From contig NZ_CP118982.1 of the NCBI RefSeq assembly GCF_029024965.1, positions 1,178,001-1,242,000 on the forward strand: a stretch of 64,000 bases of DNA, written 5' to 3'. Below, piece after piece: positions 43,097 to 61,134 of the stretch. Under the pieces are notes generated by a model. The model did not search any database, had not been told where the DNA came from, and saw nothing but the letters and a program-made list of their open reading frames with translations. The position numbers and the translations under genes were made by a program. The stretch is from Staphylococcus equorum (GTDB lineage: Bacteria > Bacillota > Bacilli > Staphylococcales > Staphylococcaceae). How positions within the stretch are numbered: position 1 is the first letter of the stretch; the number at the start of each line of letters is the position of its first letter.

Positions 43097-43933
43097 ATGC
43101 AAGAATTTTCATTTATAAGATTAAATGAACTTATATTATTAATTTATTTATTTAGTATTGCTTGTTACTTTTTTGATTTTGTGAAAAAGCATTATAAAGT
43201 TAGAAAAATTGGTTTTGTTACATTAGGGATTGTTTGGGTGTTACAAACAATCTCTTTATCTATTTATGCTAATGTAACGAAACAGATTCCATTAGGTAAT
43301 GTTTTTGATGTATTTTTTGCATTAGCTTGGTTGATTATTTCTATTTCTATAGTGATTAGTGTGATCAAGCAAATAAATTTTTCGATATTTTTATTTAATT
43401 TAATTGGTTTTGTATTAATTGCTATAAATACGTTTCAACCTATGCATTATCAGAGTGCAGGAGATAAATTAAGTATTATAAACGAATTGTTAATAGTACA
43501 TATTGCCTTTGCAATTATAAGTTATGCCCTGTTTGCTTTTGCATTTGTTAATTGTATATTATATTTAATACAGTATAAAAATTTAAAGCAAAAAAGATTT
43601 AATCAAAAATATTTTAGAATCGGTAGTGTAGCTACACTAGAACAAGTTGTGTTTTATAGTAGTCTAATTGGTTTTATATTTATCATATTAAGTATCATTT
43701 TAGGTACACAATGGGGTATAAATACTTTAGGATTACACATATTGAATGATCCCAAAGTAGTGATGTCTATAATTATTGCATTGCTGTATGGTATATATAT
43801 CATCTTTAGAGTAAGACATACGTTAAGCAAACATAATTTGATTTATTTTAATCTCAGCTTATTTTGCTTAAGTATGATTAATTTGATTTTTGCTTCTCAT
43901 ATATCCGATTTTCATCAATGGACAGGAATATGA
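43097..43933 (+). CDS. hemX: HemX, membrane protein of the hem operon
   Basis: A 278-residue integral membrane protein with about eight hydrophobic segments of the cytochrome c assembly (CcsA/HemX) superfamily, including the TQWGINTLGLHILNDPK loop. In Bacillus HemX lowers the HemA level rather than catalysing a step. It begins 21 nt after hemA and is unusually AT-rich, as expected for its hydrophobic codons. No haem-handling WWD motif is evident, fitting a regulatory member rather than a true cytochrome c synthase. Confidence 0.88.
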   Translation: MQEFSFIRLNELILLIYLFSIACYFFDFVKKHYKVRKIGFVTLGIVWVLQTISLSIYANVTKQIPLGNVFDVFFALAWLIISISIVISVIKQINFSIFLFNLIGFVLIAINTFQPMHYQSAGDKLSIINELLIVHIAFAIISYALFAFAFVNCILYLIQYKNLKQKRFNQKYFRIGSVATLEQVVFYSSLIGFIFIILSIILGTQWGINTLGLHILNDPKVVMSIIIALLYGIYIIFRVRHTLSKHNLIYFNLSLFCLSMINLIFASHISDFHQWTGI

Positions 43934-57307: not shown

Positions 57308-57492
57308 GGACTTTTAGAGTAACTGAAATATTTTAGTTCTGTTTCCAAGTTTAATTCATTTACATGAGTAGAACATAAATTACTTATCCTATATTTTAAA
57401 AACATATTAATTTGATAATTAAAAGACCTTTTGGATTGTTGATTTTTTAAATATACTTTATATTAAAGAAAGTTATGGAGGAGAACATTTAT

Positions 57493-58557
57493 ATGAGAGT
57501 CAAAAAAGTATATTTATTACTGATTCAATTTTTAATTATTATTTTATTAATATCTTTATTATTTACTAAGTCAACTGCAATATTTGCAGTCATATTTGCT
57601 TTATCAGCTTCAATTCTTATTATACATATATTGGTATCGAAGAACTCGTGGAAAGTGAAAATCATGTTCATTTCAATATATACTTTAATCTTAATTCTAC
57701 AAGAAGTTTTTATAGCTTCTACATTTTTTAATAATAGTAGTATTTGGCTCGCCTTTTTAGTAAAAAATATCATTGGTATTATTATCATATTTGTACCGTT
57801 CTTTGTAAGGTACTTACATTATATATACACACTTGAACATCAATTTTCAATGATCAGTAAAACATCAATTAGTTTTGATATGATTAGAGAAATAAATAAT
57901 AAAAGGAACAGTTTAAAAAAGAATGTTAGTAAAAGTAAAACTGCTTTATCTAAAGAAAATATTTATGAAATTGCGAATGATATTCCTAGGCATAGTTATA
58001 TTAAATATTTAAATAGAAATGCGCTGAGTGAAAGTTATTTCGCAGAATGTGAAAAAAGTTTAAATGATGAAAACTTGTATATTGTTTTATCTAGCACAGG
58101 CAGTTCTGCAAATGAATTAATTTCACTTTTCACTCAAAAAAATTATAATCATGTTTCTCTTAGTTTGGATAAAGAACTGAAAACAACAATTAGTTACAAT
58201 GGTGGAGAAAATCTAACTCTACCTGGTTTAAACCAAGAACAATTAGAGTCTTTTAATAAAAAAAGTGACGCTAGTATAATGGTATATAAAATAAAAGCTA
58301 CGAAAGAACAAAAGAAACGTATAATTGAAAAAATTAATGAAATAAATAACGCCGGTAGTGCTTATAATTTAGTAGGACTTGTAACTAAGGCATCTATTAG
58401 ACCTAATATTATGTTCTGTTCTCAATTTGTGTACAGCATTTTGAAAATAGCTAATCTAGAGTATTTTGAAGCAAATAATACTAAGGTTAAACCTACTGAT
58501 TTTGTTGAAAATGATTATTATAGAAAATTAGAATTTTGTTATGAAATTGCTTTTTAA
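57493..58557 (+). CDS. Four-helix membrane protein with permuted papain-like (YiiX/NlpC-P60-type) domain
   Basis: A 354-residue protein. Four TM segments occupy about residues 6-24, 28-47, 55-74 and 85-105. After a basic helical linker, the C-terminal domain (about 195-350) has the permuted papain order: histidine first (H220 in NYNHVSLSL), cysteine later (C309 in FCSQFVYSIL). Enzymes of this fold cleave or transfer acyl groups on lipids or peptides; staphylococcal LnsA, a lipoprotein N-acylation enzyme, belongs to the wider group. ATG 57493 follows GGAGGAG (57478-57484). It pairs with the acyltransferase gene 67 nt downstream. Low GC compared with its neighbours. Confidence 0.75.
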   Translation: MRVKKVYLLLIQFLIIILLISLLFTKSTAIFAVIFALSASILIIHILVSKNSWKVKIMFISIYTLILILQEVFIASTFFNNSSIWLAFLVKNIIGIIIIFVPFFVRYLHYIYTLEHQFSMISKTSISFDMIREINNKRNSLKKNVSKSKTALSKENIYEIANDIPRHSYIKYLNRNALSESYFAECEKSLNDENLYIVLSSTGSSANELISLFTQKNYNHVSLSLDKELKTTISYNGGENLTLPGLNQEQLESFNKKSDASIMVYKIKATKEQKKRIIEKINEINNAGSAYNLVGLVTKASIRPNIMFCSQFVYSILKIANLEYFEANNTKVKPTDFVENDYYRKLEFCYEIAF

Positions 58558-58624
58558 TATAGCATTCATGTCATATATACAGAATATTTATAGGTAATCT
58601 AAACTATTAAGAGGAGTGTAATAT

Positions 58625-59896
58625 ATGCATAATCGAAAAAAGTATAAAGTAAAACTTGATAACACAGCAATTATTCATATGGCTTCTCATAATAAAAGCT
58701 GGTTAAATATATTTAGGTTATCTATTACTTTAAAAGAAGAAATACACCCAGCCATATTACAAGAGGCTTTAAATGTAGTTACAGAAAGATTCCCTACAAT
58801 TGCAGCTAGAATATCCAAAGGTATTTTTTGGTATTATCTAGAACCAGTTTATAAAGCACCCATTATAGAAAAAGATACAAAACTATTAAAGTATATGTCG
58901 AAAAAGGATTTATATAAAAGTAGTTTTCGCGTATTATATTCAGAAAAAAGTATACATGTTGAATTATTTCATTCATTGACTGATGGTAAAGGTGGCATGG
59001 TATTTTTGAAATCATTAGTTTATGAATATCTTAAACGAAAAGAAGGCCTACATTTAAAAGATAGAGAAGATATATTAGATACTAATGAGCATCCTAGTAA
59101 AGATGAAATAGCAGACAACTACAAAGATATTAAAATAAAACAAAAAAATAAAGTTACTTTTAAGAATAACCAAGTGTACCAATTAAAAGGGAAAACAATA
59201 AACAAATTAAAAACAGAAAAATATATTATTGATATAGTAGATATAAAGAAAATAGCTAAAGACATGAATATAAGTTTAACTGTTTTAGTAGCTTCAATGA
59301 TAATTATGGGGCTAATAAATTTGCAAAAAGAGGAAATGAAAACACAAAGTCAGAAAGATATTAAAATCTTCTTGCCTATTGATTTAAGAAATGTGTTCCA
59401 TAAAAATACGTTACGTAATTTTGTCCTCTATATGAAACCTCAAATTAATCCTAAAGTTCAAGATTATACTTTGAATGAAATTATTAAAATTATTGATAAT
59501 CAACTTAAGTCAGGATTATCGGAAGATAATTTACGAACAAGGATTCAGAAAAATGTGAGCATACAGAATAGTATATTCATTAAAATGATGCCATTATTTA
59601 TCAAGCAATATTTTCTTAAGCGTTCATTTTTATTTAGCGAAAAAACAACATGCTTAACTCTGTCGAATTTAGGATTAATTCGAATGCCAACGGAAATGGA
59701 TAAATATATAGATAGAGTAGACTGTATACTTAACACTCGATCACGAACGCCATACAACTGCAGTATGTTAAGTTATGATAATAAGTTTTATATAAATTTA
59801 GTTAGAGACATTGAACAACCGTTATTGGAATTGGAAATAAATAAGTTATTAAAACAATTAAATATTAAGTATGAAGTAGAGAGTAATGAGTACTAA
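58625..59896 (+). CDS. HxxxDG acyltransferase, alcohol-acetyltransferase/condensation-like
   Basis: A 423-residue protein of the CoA-dependent acyltransferase superfamily. The catalytic motif is HSLTDG at 116-121; LQEALNVVTERFPTIAARI (about 44-62) and PIDLRNVF ... LRNF (about 251-270) match alcohol-acetyltransferase-like condensation domains. No carrier or adenylation domain is present, so it is a free-standing transferase for an unknown alcohol, amine or lipid. AGGAG precedes ATG 58625. It probably works with the membrane papain-fold protein upstream. The composition is very AT-rich with many AAA codons, suggesting transfer. Confidence 0.8.
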   Translation: MHNRKKYKVKLDNTAIIHMASHNKSWLNIFRLSITLKEEIHPAILQEALNVVTERFPTIAARISKGIFWYYLEPVYKAPIIEKDTKLLKYMSKKDLYKSSFRVLYSEKSIHVELFHSLTDGKGGMVFLKSLVYEYLKRKEGLHLKDREDILDTNEHPSKDEIADNYKDIKIKQKNKVTFKNNQVYQLKGKTINKLKTEKYIIDIVDIKKIAKDMNISLTVLVASMIIMGLINLQKEEMKTQSQKDIKIFLPIDLRNVFHKNTLRNFVLYMKPQINPKVQDYTLNEIIKIIDNQLKSGLSEDNLRTRIQKNVSIQNSIFIKMMPLFIKQYFLKRSFLFSEKTTCLTLSNLGLIRMPTEMDKYIDRVDCILNTRSRTPYNCSMLSYDNKFYINLVRDIEQPLLELEINKLLKQLNIKYEVESNEY

Positions 59897-59924
59897 AAAC
59901 TAACTTTATATCAAAAGGAGACAA

Positions 59925-59957
59925 ACTAATACAGTTATTACTTAGTTTGTCTTTTGT
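59925..59957 (+). terminator. Terminator after the acyltransferase gene
   Basis: AGACAAACTA (59929-59938) pairs with TAGTTTGTCT (59943-59952), with a short loop and TTTTG tail. Confidence 0.65.
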
Positions 59958-60131
59958 CGTTGAAAAAATAATATAACGATTATATAAATTAAAACATCCA
60001 TCGGTTTTGATAGTCTGAATATTTTCCCAGATTATTAAATTATTAAAACGGGTAGAAATAGAAAGTAACGAATATAAAATCAACTTGTTTATGCTGATTT
60101 TTAAATACATGGAAGAAGGGAAGGATTATGA

Positions 60132-60980
60132 ATGACAATGTATGATGAGTTTCGTTTAAATGATGGATCAACTTTACCTCATATAGGATTAGGAACGGTG
60201 AATATTCAAGGCGGAAAAGGCGTTAATCAAGTAATAAATGCAATTGATATAGGCTATAGCTTAATAGATACTTCAACTAATTATAACAATGAAGGTATGG
60301 TAGGCGAAGCAATTCGTCGTTCGTCAATTCCTCGAGAACAGATTTATGTAAGTGCTAAATTACCAGGCGCTGCTCATGAATATGATAAAGCGATTAATCT
60401 AATTCAAGAGTCACTTTATCGTACTGGGTTAGATTATTTTGACAAATACTTAATACATTGGCCGAATCCGAAACAAGGTAAATTCGTTGAGGCCTGGAAA
60501 GCATTAGTCGATGCACAGAAATATGGTTTAATTAAAACAATTGGTGTTTCTAATTTTATGCCTGAACATTTAGATGAAATTATTGAAGCAACAGGAGTGA
60601 CACCAGCTACCAATCAAATAGAGATACAACCGTATTTCAATAATAAAGATTTAATAGCAGAAAATGATAAAAGAGGTATTTTATCAGAAGCATGGAGTCC
60701 TTTAGGACGTGAAATTAATGATGTTCTTACGAATGATACGATTAAAGCTATTGCTGATAAATATGATCGTACGCCCGCTCAAGTGATTATTAACTGGGTT
60801 AATCAAAACCACGTATTTCCAATTGTTAAATCGAGTGATGACGTACATCAACAAGAAAATTATAATTATCTTGACTTTGAATTAGAACAAGAAGACTTAG
60901 ATAAGATTGATGCTTTAGATCAAGGTGAAAGCGGTCGTGTTGAAGGTCAAAATCCGCGTGAATATGAAGAGTTTGTTTAA
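60132..60980 (+). CDS. Aldo/keto reductase
   Basis: A 282-residue TIM-barrel NADPH reductase. The catalytic tetrad is visible: Asp in SLIDTS, Tyr in TNYNNE, Lys in VSAKLPG and His in YLIHWPNP. The late WVNQNHVFPIVKSS binds the NADP phosphate. Length and pattern match the YvgN/YtbE branch of glyoxal and aldehyde reductases; the substrate is not defined. ATG 60132 fits GAAGGGAAGGA (60114-60124); the ATG at 60128 is in another frame and stops after five codons, and ATG 60138 is an in-frame alternative. Confidence 0.9.
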   Translation: MTMYDEFRLNDGSTLPHIGLGTVNIQGGKGVNQVINAIDIGYSLIDTSTNYNNEGMVGEAIRRSSIPREQIYVSAKLPGAAHEYDKAINLIQESLYRTGLDYFDKYLIHWPNPKQGKFVEAWKALVDAQKYGLIKTIGVSNFMPEHLDEIIEATGVTPATNQIEIQPYFNNKDLIAENDKRGILSEAWSPLGREINDVLTNDTIKAIADKYDRTPAQVIINWVNQNHVFPIVKSSDDVHQQENYNYLDFELEQEDLDKIDALDQGESGRVEGQNPREYEEFV

Positions 60981-61006
60981 GCATTTAAATCAACATTATA
61001 TATTAA

Positions 61007-61042
61007 TGACATCCTGTTCTTATGAAGGGATGTCTTTTTTTA
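61007..61042 (+). terminator. Terminator after the aldo/keto reductase
   Basis: GACATCC (61008-61014) pairs with GGATGTC (61028-61034), followed by TTTTTTT. Confidence 0.8.
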
Positions 61043-61134
61043 CATATGACATATTTGTTTTATGGAGTACATTAATCTTCCGGTATGCGTCAAGGTAATG
61101 TATAATCAAGATGTTATATAAGGAGGATTATATA

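Follow-up and report, generated by a model that had tools for sequence, protein, structure and literature searches.

The window analyzed here, a stretch of 64,000 nucleotides from the genome of Staphylococcus equorum (assembly GCF_029024965.1, contig NZ_CP118982.1, positions 1,178,001 to 1,242,000, forward strand), carries two adjacent genes downstream of radC, which are termed A and B in the following. A sequence-only reading had described them as a protein with four transmembrane helices and a permuted papain-like domain, followed by a free-standing HSLTDG acyltransferase, and the open reading frames (ORFs), the helices, and the motif were all recovered. The features of both genes are as follows (positions in the window):

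57477..57483, + strand: GGAGGAG, ribosome-binding site of gene A, read from the sequence
57493..58557, + strand: gene A, 354-amino-acid membrane protein with four transmembrane helices and a C-terminal permuted-papain (YiiX-like) domain
57508..57807, + strand: residues 6-105 of A, four predicted transmembrane helices, N-in/C-in by the positive-inside rule
58075..58554, + strand: C-terminal segment of A matched by Foldseek; 3kw0 only at E 0.07-0.29, with a probability of 0.84-0.94 by Foldseek alone
58150..58152, + strand: codon of His220, the predicted catalytic His, invariant in 105/105 rows; pairs with the His of YiiX DYSHTG in a weak-scoring alignment
58363..58365, + strand: codon of Tyr291, the NlpC/P60 signature Tyr, invariant in 105/105 rows; pairs with the Tyr of YiiX KPYDF in a weak-scoring alignment
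58417..58419, + strand: codon of Cys309, the predicted nucleophile, in FCSQF, invariant in 105/105 rows; pairs with the Cys of YiiX YCSEV in a weak-scoring alignment
58611..58616, + strand: GAGGAG, ribosome-binding site of gene B, read from the sequence
58625..59896, + strand: gene B, 423-amino-acid free-standing acyltransferase of the condensation fold with an HxxxDG motif
58970..58987, + strand: HSLTDG catalytic motif, residues 116-121 of B; His116 and Asp120 invariant in 88/88 rows

The ORF-listing program had placed the start of A at an upstream ATG (57475). Because this codon overlaps the ribosome-binding site GGAGGAG, the start at 57493, 185 bp from radC, is preferred. The spacing between A and B is 67 bp. 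In a simple hydropathy scan, the hydrophobic helices of A were located at residues 6-24, 30-48, 57-75, and 87-105. Applied to 25 A rows, the same scan detected four helices in 21, and the positive charges of all 21 favor an orientation with both termini inside; three helices and mixed charges were obtained for the other four rows (P0020, P0061, P0089, and P0090). Based on the N-in/C-in orientation derived from these charges, the papain domain of A is predicted to be cytosolic.

This domain displays the His/Cys dyad in permuted order and the signature Tyr of permuted NlpC/P60 (PPNE) enzymes, as well as the papain-like fold of YiiX and BcPPNE. The conservation of His220 and Cys309, on which the sequence-only reading depended, was found throughout the alignment. 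Nevertheless, A differs from the YaeF/YiiX-like permuted NlpC/P60 enzymes (PF05708, C92; E. coli YiiX 2if6, B. cereus 3kw0) in its four transmembrane helices, in scoring below the gathering cut-off of Pfam PF05708 (20.8 vs 27 bits), and in the column of the triad residue Glu64 of YaeF/YiiX, which appears to be Tyr235 in A (105/105; ungapped, low-scoring alignment with YiiX). One homologue of A (P0081) reaches 27.4 bits on PF05708, and 60 of the 105 A rows match the model at E up to 0.01. A sequence search of the PDB returned no meaningful match for A or B. A also matched a PHROG family annotated 'enoyl-CoA hydratase/carnithine racemase-like' at 24.6 bits. Bacterial YiiX-like permuted-papain enzymes are described as functionally poorly understood in the available text of PMC7387801, and the fold includes both phospholipases and acyltransferases according to the accessible parts of PMC7387801, PMC3142127, and PMC12994826.

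B shows the HxxxD motif and the two-subdomain fold of the Condensation/CAT-like superfamily, with Gly121 of the motif kept in 87 of 88 aligned rows. The only stretch flagged by the hydropathy scan (residues 215-233) is a helix inside the folded domain of the structure model. No model of Pfam or NCBIfam matched the B of the window at E up to 1, and the cut-offs of AATase (PF07247) and Condensation (PF00668) were not reached; among its homologues, matches at E up to 0.01 were obtained for AATase (64/88), PapA_C (6/88), and Condensation (1/88). Fold and HxxxD(G) motif are common to B, PapA5, WS/DGAT, AATase, and the condensation domains of nonribosomal peptide synthetases (NRPS; 1q9j, 6chj); unlike these, B has either A or a DUF6320 protein as its neighbor. 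The best structural matches (AzeD, PapA5, condensation domains) and the AATase and PapA_C matches would also suit a role of B in tailoring a small molecule in the manner of PapA5 or BAHD enzymes, with A as a thioesterase or hydrolase of the same pathway and no lipid remodeling. However, no NRPS or polyketide gene was seen by eye beside the pair in the five loci described below. In one of them (G107), the neighbors resemble a branched-chain keto-acid dehydrogenase operon, and this enzyme makes fatty-acid primers. Since the kinase fusion of A's domain, presented below, likewise points to lipids, small-molecule tailoring appears doubtful.

Among 108 Staphylococcaceae genomes, full-length A was detected in five, intact B in the same five, and the two genes are adjacent and in the same order in all of them, as they should be if the pairing noticed in the window is general. 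These counts omit G106, which holds a fragment of B, and G075, whose match to A covers transmembrane residues only (6-126; 25%, E 6.5e-5) and was dropped as transmembrane similarity. In a sample of the order (157 genomes), A was found in the same five genomes, and among 398 Bacilli, A was detected at 1e-40 in two genomes, both belonging to the five.

The location of the pair is not constant. It lies on another contig than radC in G093 and G095 and more than 100 kb away from it in G107 and G023, and its neighbors, read by eye, differ among the five genomes. The A protein of G023, which belongs to another genus, is 67% identical to that of the window, comparable to the A proteins of the same-genus genomes (67, 64, and 63%), whereas the radC products are 50% identical for G023 and 85, 77, and 83% for the genomes of the window's own genus. 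This disagreement argues strongly, on sequence comparison, for transfer and is in line with the acquisition suggested by the sequence-only reading. Because the identities of A and radC disagree, the A-B pair is, as judged from the sequences, a unit that moves horizontally. In addition, the distances of A and B correlate across nine pairs (r=0.89, Mantel p=1e-4, a p-value that is flattering because two of the nine pairs are nearly identical); five pairs come from the pair-bearing genomes and four were inferred from contigs of equal length, one of them also via neighboring locus tags. A collection of plasmids contained only distant matches to A and B (two records each), A was without a phage match and the A alignment without a viral-contig match, B not having been searched in either of the latter collections; an origin from a plasmid, phage, or virus was rejected on the distant plasmid matches and the lack of phage or viral matches to A.

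A sister locus illustrates the opposite event. G106 and G107 are 99.7% and 99.4% identical over the flanking 8.4 and 8.8 kb, and G106 lacks 2308 bp comprising A and most of B, of which a 3' scrap remains. The pair was thus probably lost recently in G106, as read from the two sequences. The presence/absence is clean (L052:8414-10721 vs L057 near 9384) and represents a natural deletion.

Such a sporadic and mobile occurrence (5/108 genomes, varied neighborhoods, loss in a locus 99.4-99.7% identical on either side) would be expected of a conflict module for phage defense or addiction, in which A is a membrane-damaging phospholipase checked or repaired by B, and Tox-Act1 is described in the available text of PMC12994826 as a phospholipase toxin of the same fold. 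Conversely, no PADLOC family matched A, B, or single representatives of the kinase fusions, the hydrolases, and the DUF6320 proteins at E up to 0.1, and assignment to a known defense system was rejected on this result. Each of the two genes also exists elsewhere without the other, the deletion in G106 took out A along with nearly all of B, and the phage and viral collections lack A as noted. A conflict module is therefore regarded as highly improbable.

Outside the family, the two genes were mostly found apart. In a sample of the phylum (398 genomes), 45 genomes match A at 1e-10. Besides the genome of the window, these comprise two with full-length proteins (G240, G320), three with kinase fusions (G118, G150, G154), and one with a fragment (G293); the remaining 38 matches are short frames consisting of the papain domain alone. 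B was detected in 22 of the 398 genomes at 1e-20, and only the genome of the window combines B with a full-length or fused A. Of the remaining 21 genomes with B, six carry a short homologue of the papain domain, always on another contig. Among 279 Bacilli, B occurs in nine, including three of the window's order without A, and the family of G351 (29 genomes) yielded a single match, a short papain-domain protein. Listeria proteins are present among the homologues of A and among those of B.

The partners of the two families in these bacteria are as follows:

L054:1540-3177, L055:8566-10236, L056:8428-10062: kinase-papain fusions of the YegS/BmrU type
L083, L086-L093, L095-L097, L123-L127: B together with the zinc-ribbon membrane protein DUF6320, often also with an Abhydrolase_3 gene

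At the first three loci, a complete YegS-type lipid kinase is followed, within one protein, by the papain domain of A. When the search was restricted to this domain, 72 of the 120 matches listed of 175, from other Firmicutes, contained PF00781 and/or PF19279 (proteins of about 306 to 973 amino acids); all 72 lipid-kinase fusions among the matches listed retain the His, Tyr, and Cys. Where the source names the fusions, they are mostly called 'YegS/Rv2252/BmrU family lipid kinase'. The fragment in G293 (L059:1999-2924) is split, with kinase-like and papain parts in different frames, as in a broken or mis-assembled fusion gene.

For B, 21 loci without full-length A were compared, of which 15 belong to the remaining 21 B genomes of the phylum sample and six are further loci of Bacilli (one of two places was used for G362; G347, G272, G484, G313, G394, and G169 were left out). 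A DUF6320 membrane protein is encoded directly beside B in 17 of them, with L083 barely exceeding the Pfam cut-off and L088 split in two frames; the ORF filter dropped the B frame of L086, which was placed from the phylum search instead. The other four loci are L084, with an uncounted zinc-less look-alike, L085 and L128, located at contig ends, and L094, where none was found. Nine of the 21 loci have an Abhydrolase_3-type gene next to B, weaker matches near L090 and L125 being uncounted. Neither DUF6320 nor Abhydrolase_3 was present at the five pair loci (for the window, by reading the neighbors and, for DUF6320, also by the search of the 108 genomes), and DUF6320 was above the cut-off in none of the 108 Staphylococcaceae genomes, with weak matches in two. 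The difference for DUF6320 beside B (17/21 vs 0/5) gives a Fisher p of 0.002 without correction for kinship. The pair thus resembles the Abhydrolase_3 - B-family - DUF6320 cluster of other Firmicutes in that the same acyltransferase family has a membrane protein, and in many cases an acyl hydrolase, as a neighbor, but A occupies the position of these partners and is non-homologous to DUF6320; homology of its transmembrane part to DUF6320 was rejected (hhalign 0.6%). These neighbors, together with the fold matches and the lipid-kinase fusions, support the acyl-related role that the sequence-only reading had assigned to the pair.

A and B might still be functionally unrelated genes that happen to lie on the same acquired segment, as the phylum sample holds each family without the other except in the genome of the window. 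Their adjacency and common order in five genomes with different surroundings, their correlated divergence, and the exchange with DUF6320 speak against this explanation, which we consider unlikely.

The parallel to staphylococcal lipoprotein N-acylation drawn in the sequence-only reading, with a lipoprotein or wall polymer as the target, was not supported. In an LnsAB- or Lnb-like system, A would move an acyl chain from a phospholipid to the N-terminus of a lipoprotein, with B assisting. Lipoprotein maturation takes place outside the cytoplasm, whereas the domain of A is predicted to be inside. Relatives of A are fused to a lipid kinase, the fold of B is that of coenzyme A (CoA)- or carrier-using enzymes, and the partner of A in the cassette is B and no CPBP protein such as LnsB. 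The match of A to Lnb_N, which would fit N-acylation, is below the threshold (14.5 vs 22.2 bits); also in its favor, LnsA has permuted-papain features (PMC7387801, available text) and Lnb (DUF4105) is reported to be a permuted-papain lipoprotein N-acyltransferase (PMC12994826, available text). Like the pair, the S. aureus LnsA/LnsB system is staphylococcal, has two protein components, and includes a permuted-papain active site in one of them. According to the available text of PMC7387801, LnsA is 189 amino acids long and bears a predicted signal peptide, LnsB is remotely homologous to CPBP proteins, and the two genes are not next to each other. LnsA is exported, whereas A is integral and predicted to face inward (a comparison by the description of LnsA, not its sequence), and LnsB is CPBP-like, whereas B is a condensation-fold acyltransferase. 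A PF05708 scan of the window's own genome found neither A nor a relative of LnsA above the cut-off. The Tox-Act1, Lnb (DUF4105), and TseH clades share the permuted NlpC/P60 core with A, and phospholipase or lipoprotein acyltransferase activity is reported for them in the accessible part of PMC12994826; however, Tox-Act1 and TseH are type VI secretion effectors and the Lnb domain is periplasmic according to Pfam, whereas A has B as its partner and a predicted orientation toward the cytosol. Lipoprotein N-acylation by the pair is accordingly considered very unlikely. Given the predicted cytosolic location of A's domain and the lipid-kinase fusions among its relatives, a lipid of the inner leaflet is a better candidate for the target than a lipoprotein or wall polymer.

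The surroundings of the pair in the window include the following features:

57308..61110, + strand: stretch without counterpart between radC and the gene of a 101-amino-acid protein in relatives; contains A, B, and an aldo/keto reductase gene (60132-60980)
59916..59955, + strand: hairpin with a T-rich 3' side (-14.2 kcal/mol), probable terminator of the A-B unit
60028..60075, + strand: possible scrap from the 3' end of a second B (IIKLLKRVEIESNEY), weak (tblastn against 304 bp, E=0.047)

The expectation that only small genes follow radC was confirmed: a homologue of the 101-amino-acid gene (61111 in the window) starts at most about 200 bp from radC in seven of nine other radC loci, which include the four other pair-bearing genomes; no homologue was detected in the other two (L106, L110). 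In the window, this distance is 3803 bp. Because the gene sits close to radC in relatives, the extra stretch is taken to contain A, B, and the aldo/keto reductase gene. Aldo/keto-reductase-like genes were also seen by eye beside the pair or A elsewhere (L009:10591-11574, L053:10510-11478), probably by coincidence. The hairpin is absent from a separate hairpin scan, whose loop limit was 8. The weak scrap, located 3' of the intact B, resembles the one left in G106.

Low guanine-cytosine (GC) content and lysine richness had been taken as further signs of acquisition. Among the 50 ORFs of at least 100 amino acids in the window (mean GC 33.4%, sd 2.8), A (25.0%, measured from 57475) and B (26.3%) have the second and third lowest GC content, as claimed; the aldo/keto reductase is outside the twelve lowest. 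Lysine richness applies to B (12.8%, fourth of 50) and not to A (8.9%, outside the eight highest). The lowest GC content of the window (24.7%) belongs to the ORF at 43097-43933.

Tentatively and with some reservation, we propose that A and B form a horizontally transferred module that turns over the acyl groups of a lipid, or of a lipid-like alcohol, at the inner membrane leaflet. Held in the membrane by its four helices, A would expose the permuted-papain domain to the cytosol, where Cys309, with His220 as the base and the assistance of Tyr291, may attack an ester- or amide-linked acyl chain. An acyl-thioester would form on A, as in LRAT/PLAAT- and Tox-Act1-type enzymes, and the chain could then be passed to water or another acceptor. 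Beside A, the soluble condensation-fold protein B would transfer an acyl group onto a hydroxyl via His116. In bacteria without A, the B family would work with the DUF6320 membrane protein, often together with an Abhydrolase_3 esterase, and A, which combines a membrane part and a putative acyl-hydrolase part in one chain, may replace both. Such a module would be the simplest account of the data because of the usual partners of B, the tie of A to lipid kinases, and a fold that includes phospholipases and acyltransferases. Several points weigh against it: the A and B families each occur without the other in most genomes sampled, their co-occurrence would arise from joint transfer alone, and the structure model of A is a moderate one.

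A bolder version, which seems to us improbable as a whole, is a direct acyl relay, in which A would load an acyl chain of an inner-leaflet phospholipid on Cys309 and B would pass it to a new hydroxyl without acyl carrier protein or CoA. The pair would then be the compact form of a wider system, in which B depends on a membrane partner that can be exchanged (DUF6320 or A) and the domain of A is elsewhere coupled to a diacylglycerol-type lipid kinase.

The enzyme families concerned are known, and the combination of the pair and its link to lipid kinases appear to be undescribed: among the literature matches listed, no description was found of the A-B pairing, the lipid-kinase fusion, or the exchange of DUF6320 and A, and the term DUF6320 had no literature match. 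The kinase fusions and the swap of B's membrane neighbor tie two uncharacterized families, that of A and that of B with DUF6320, to the acyl chemistry of membrane lipids. As the cassette occurs naturally in some staphylococci and is missing from a nearly identical sister locus, a definite test of its role is possible.
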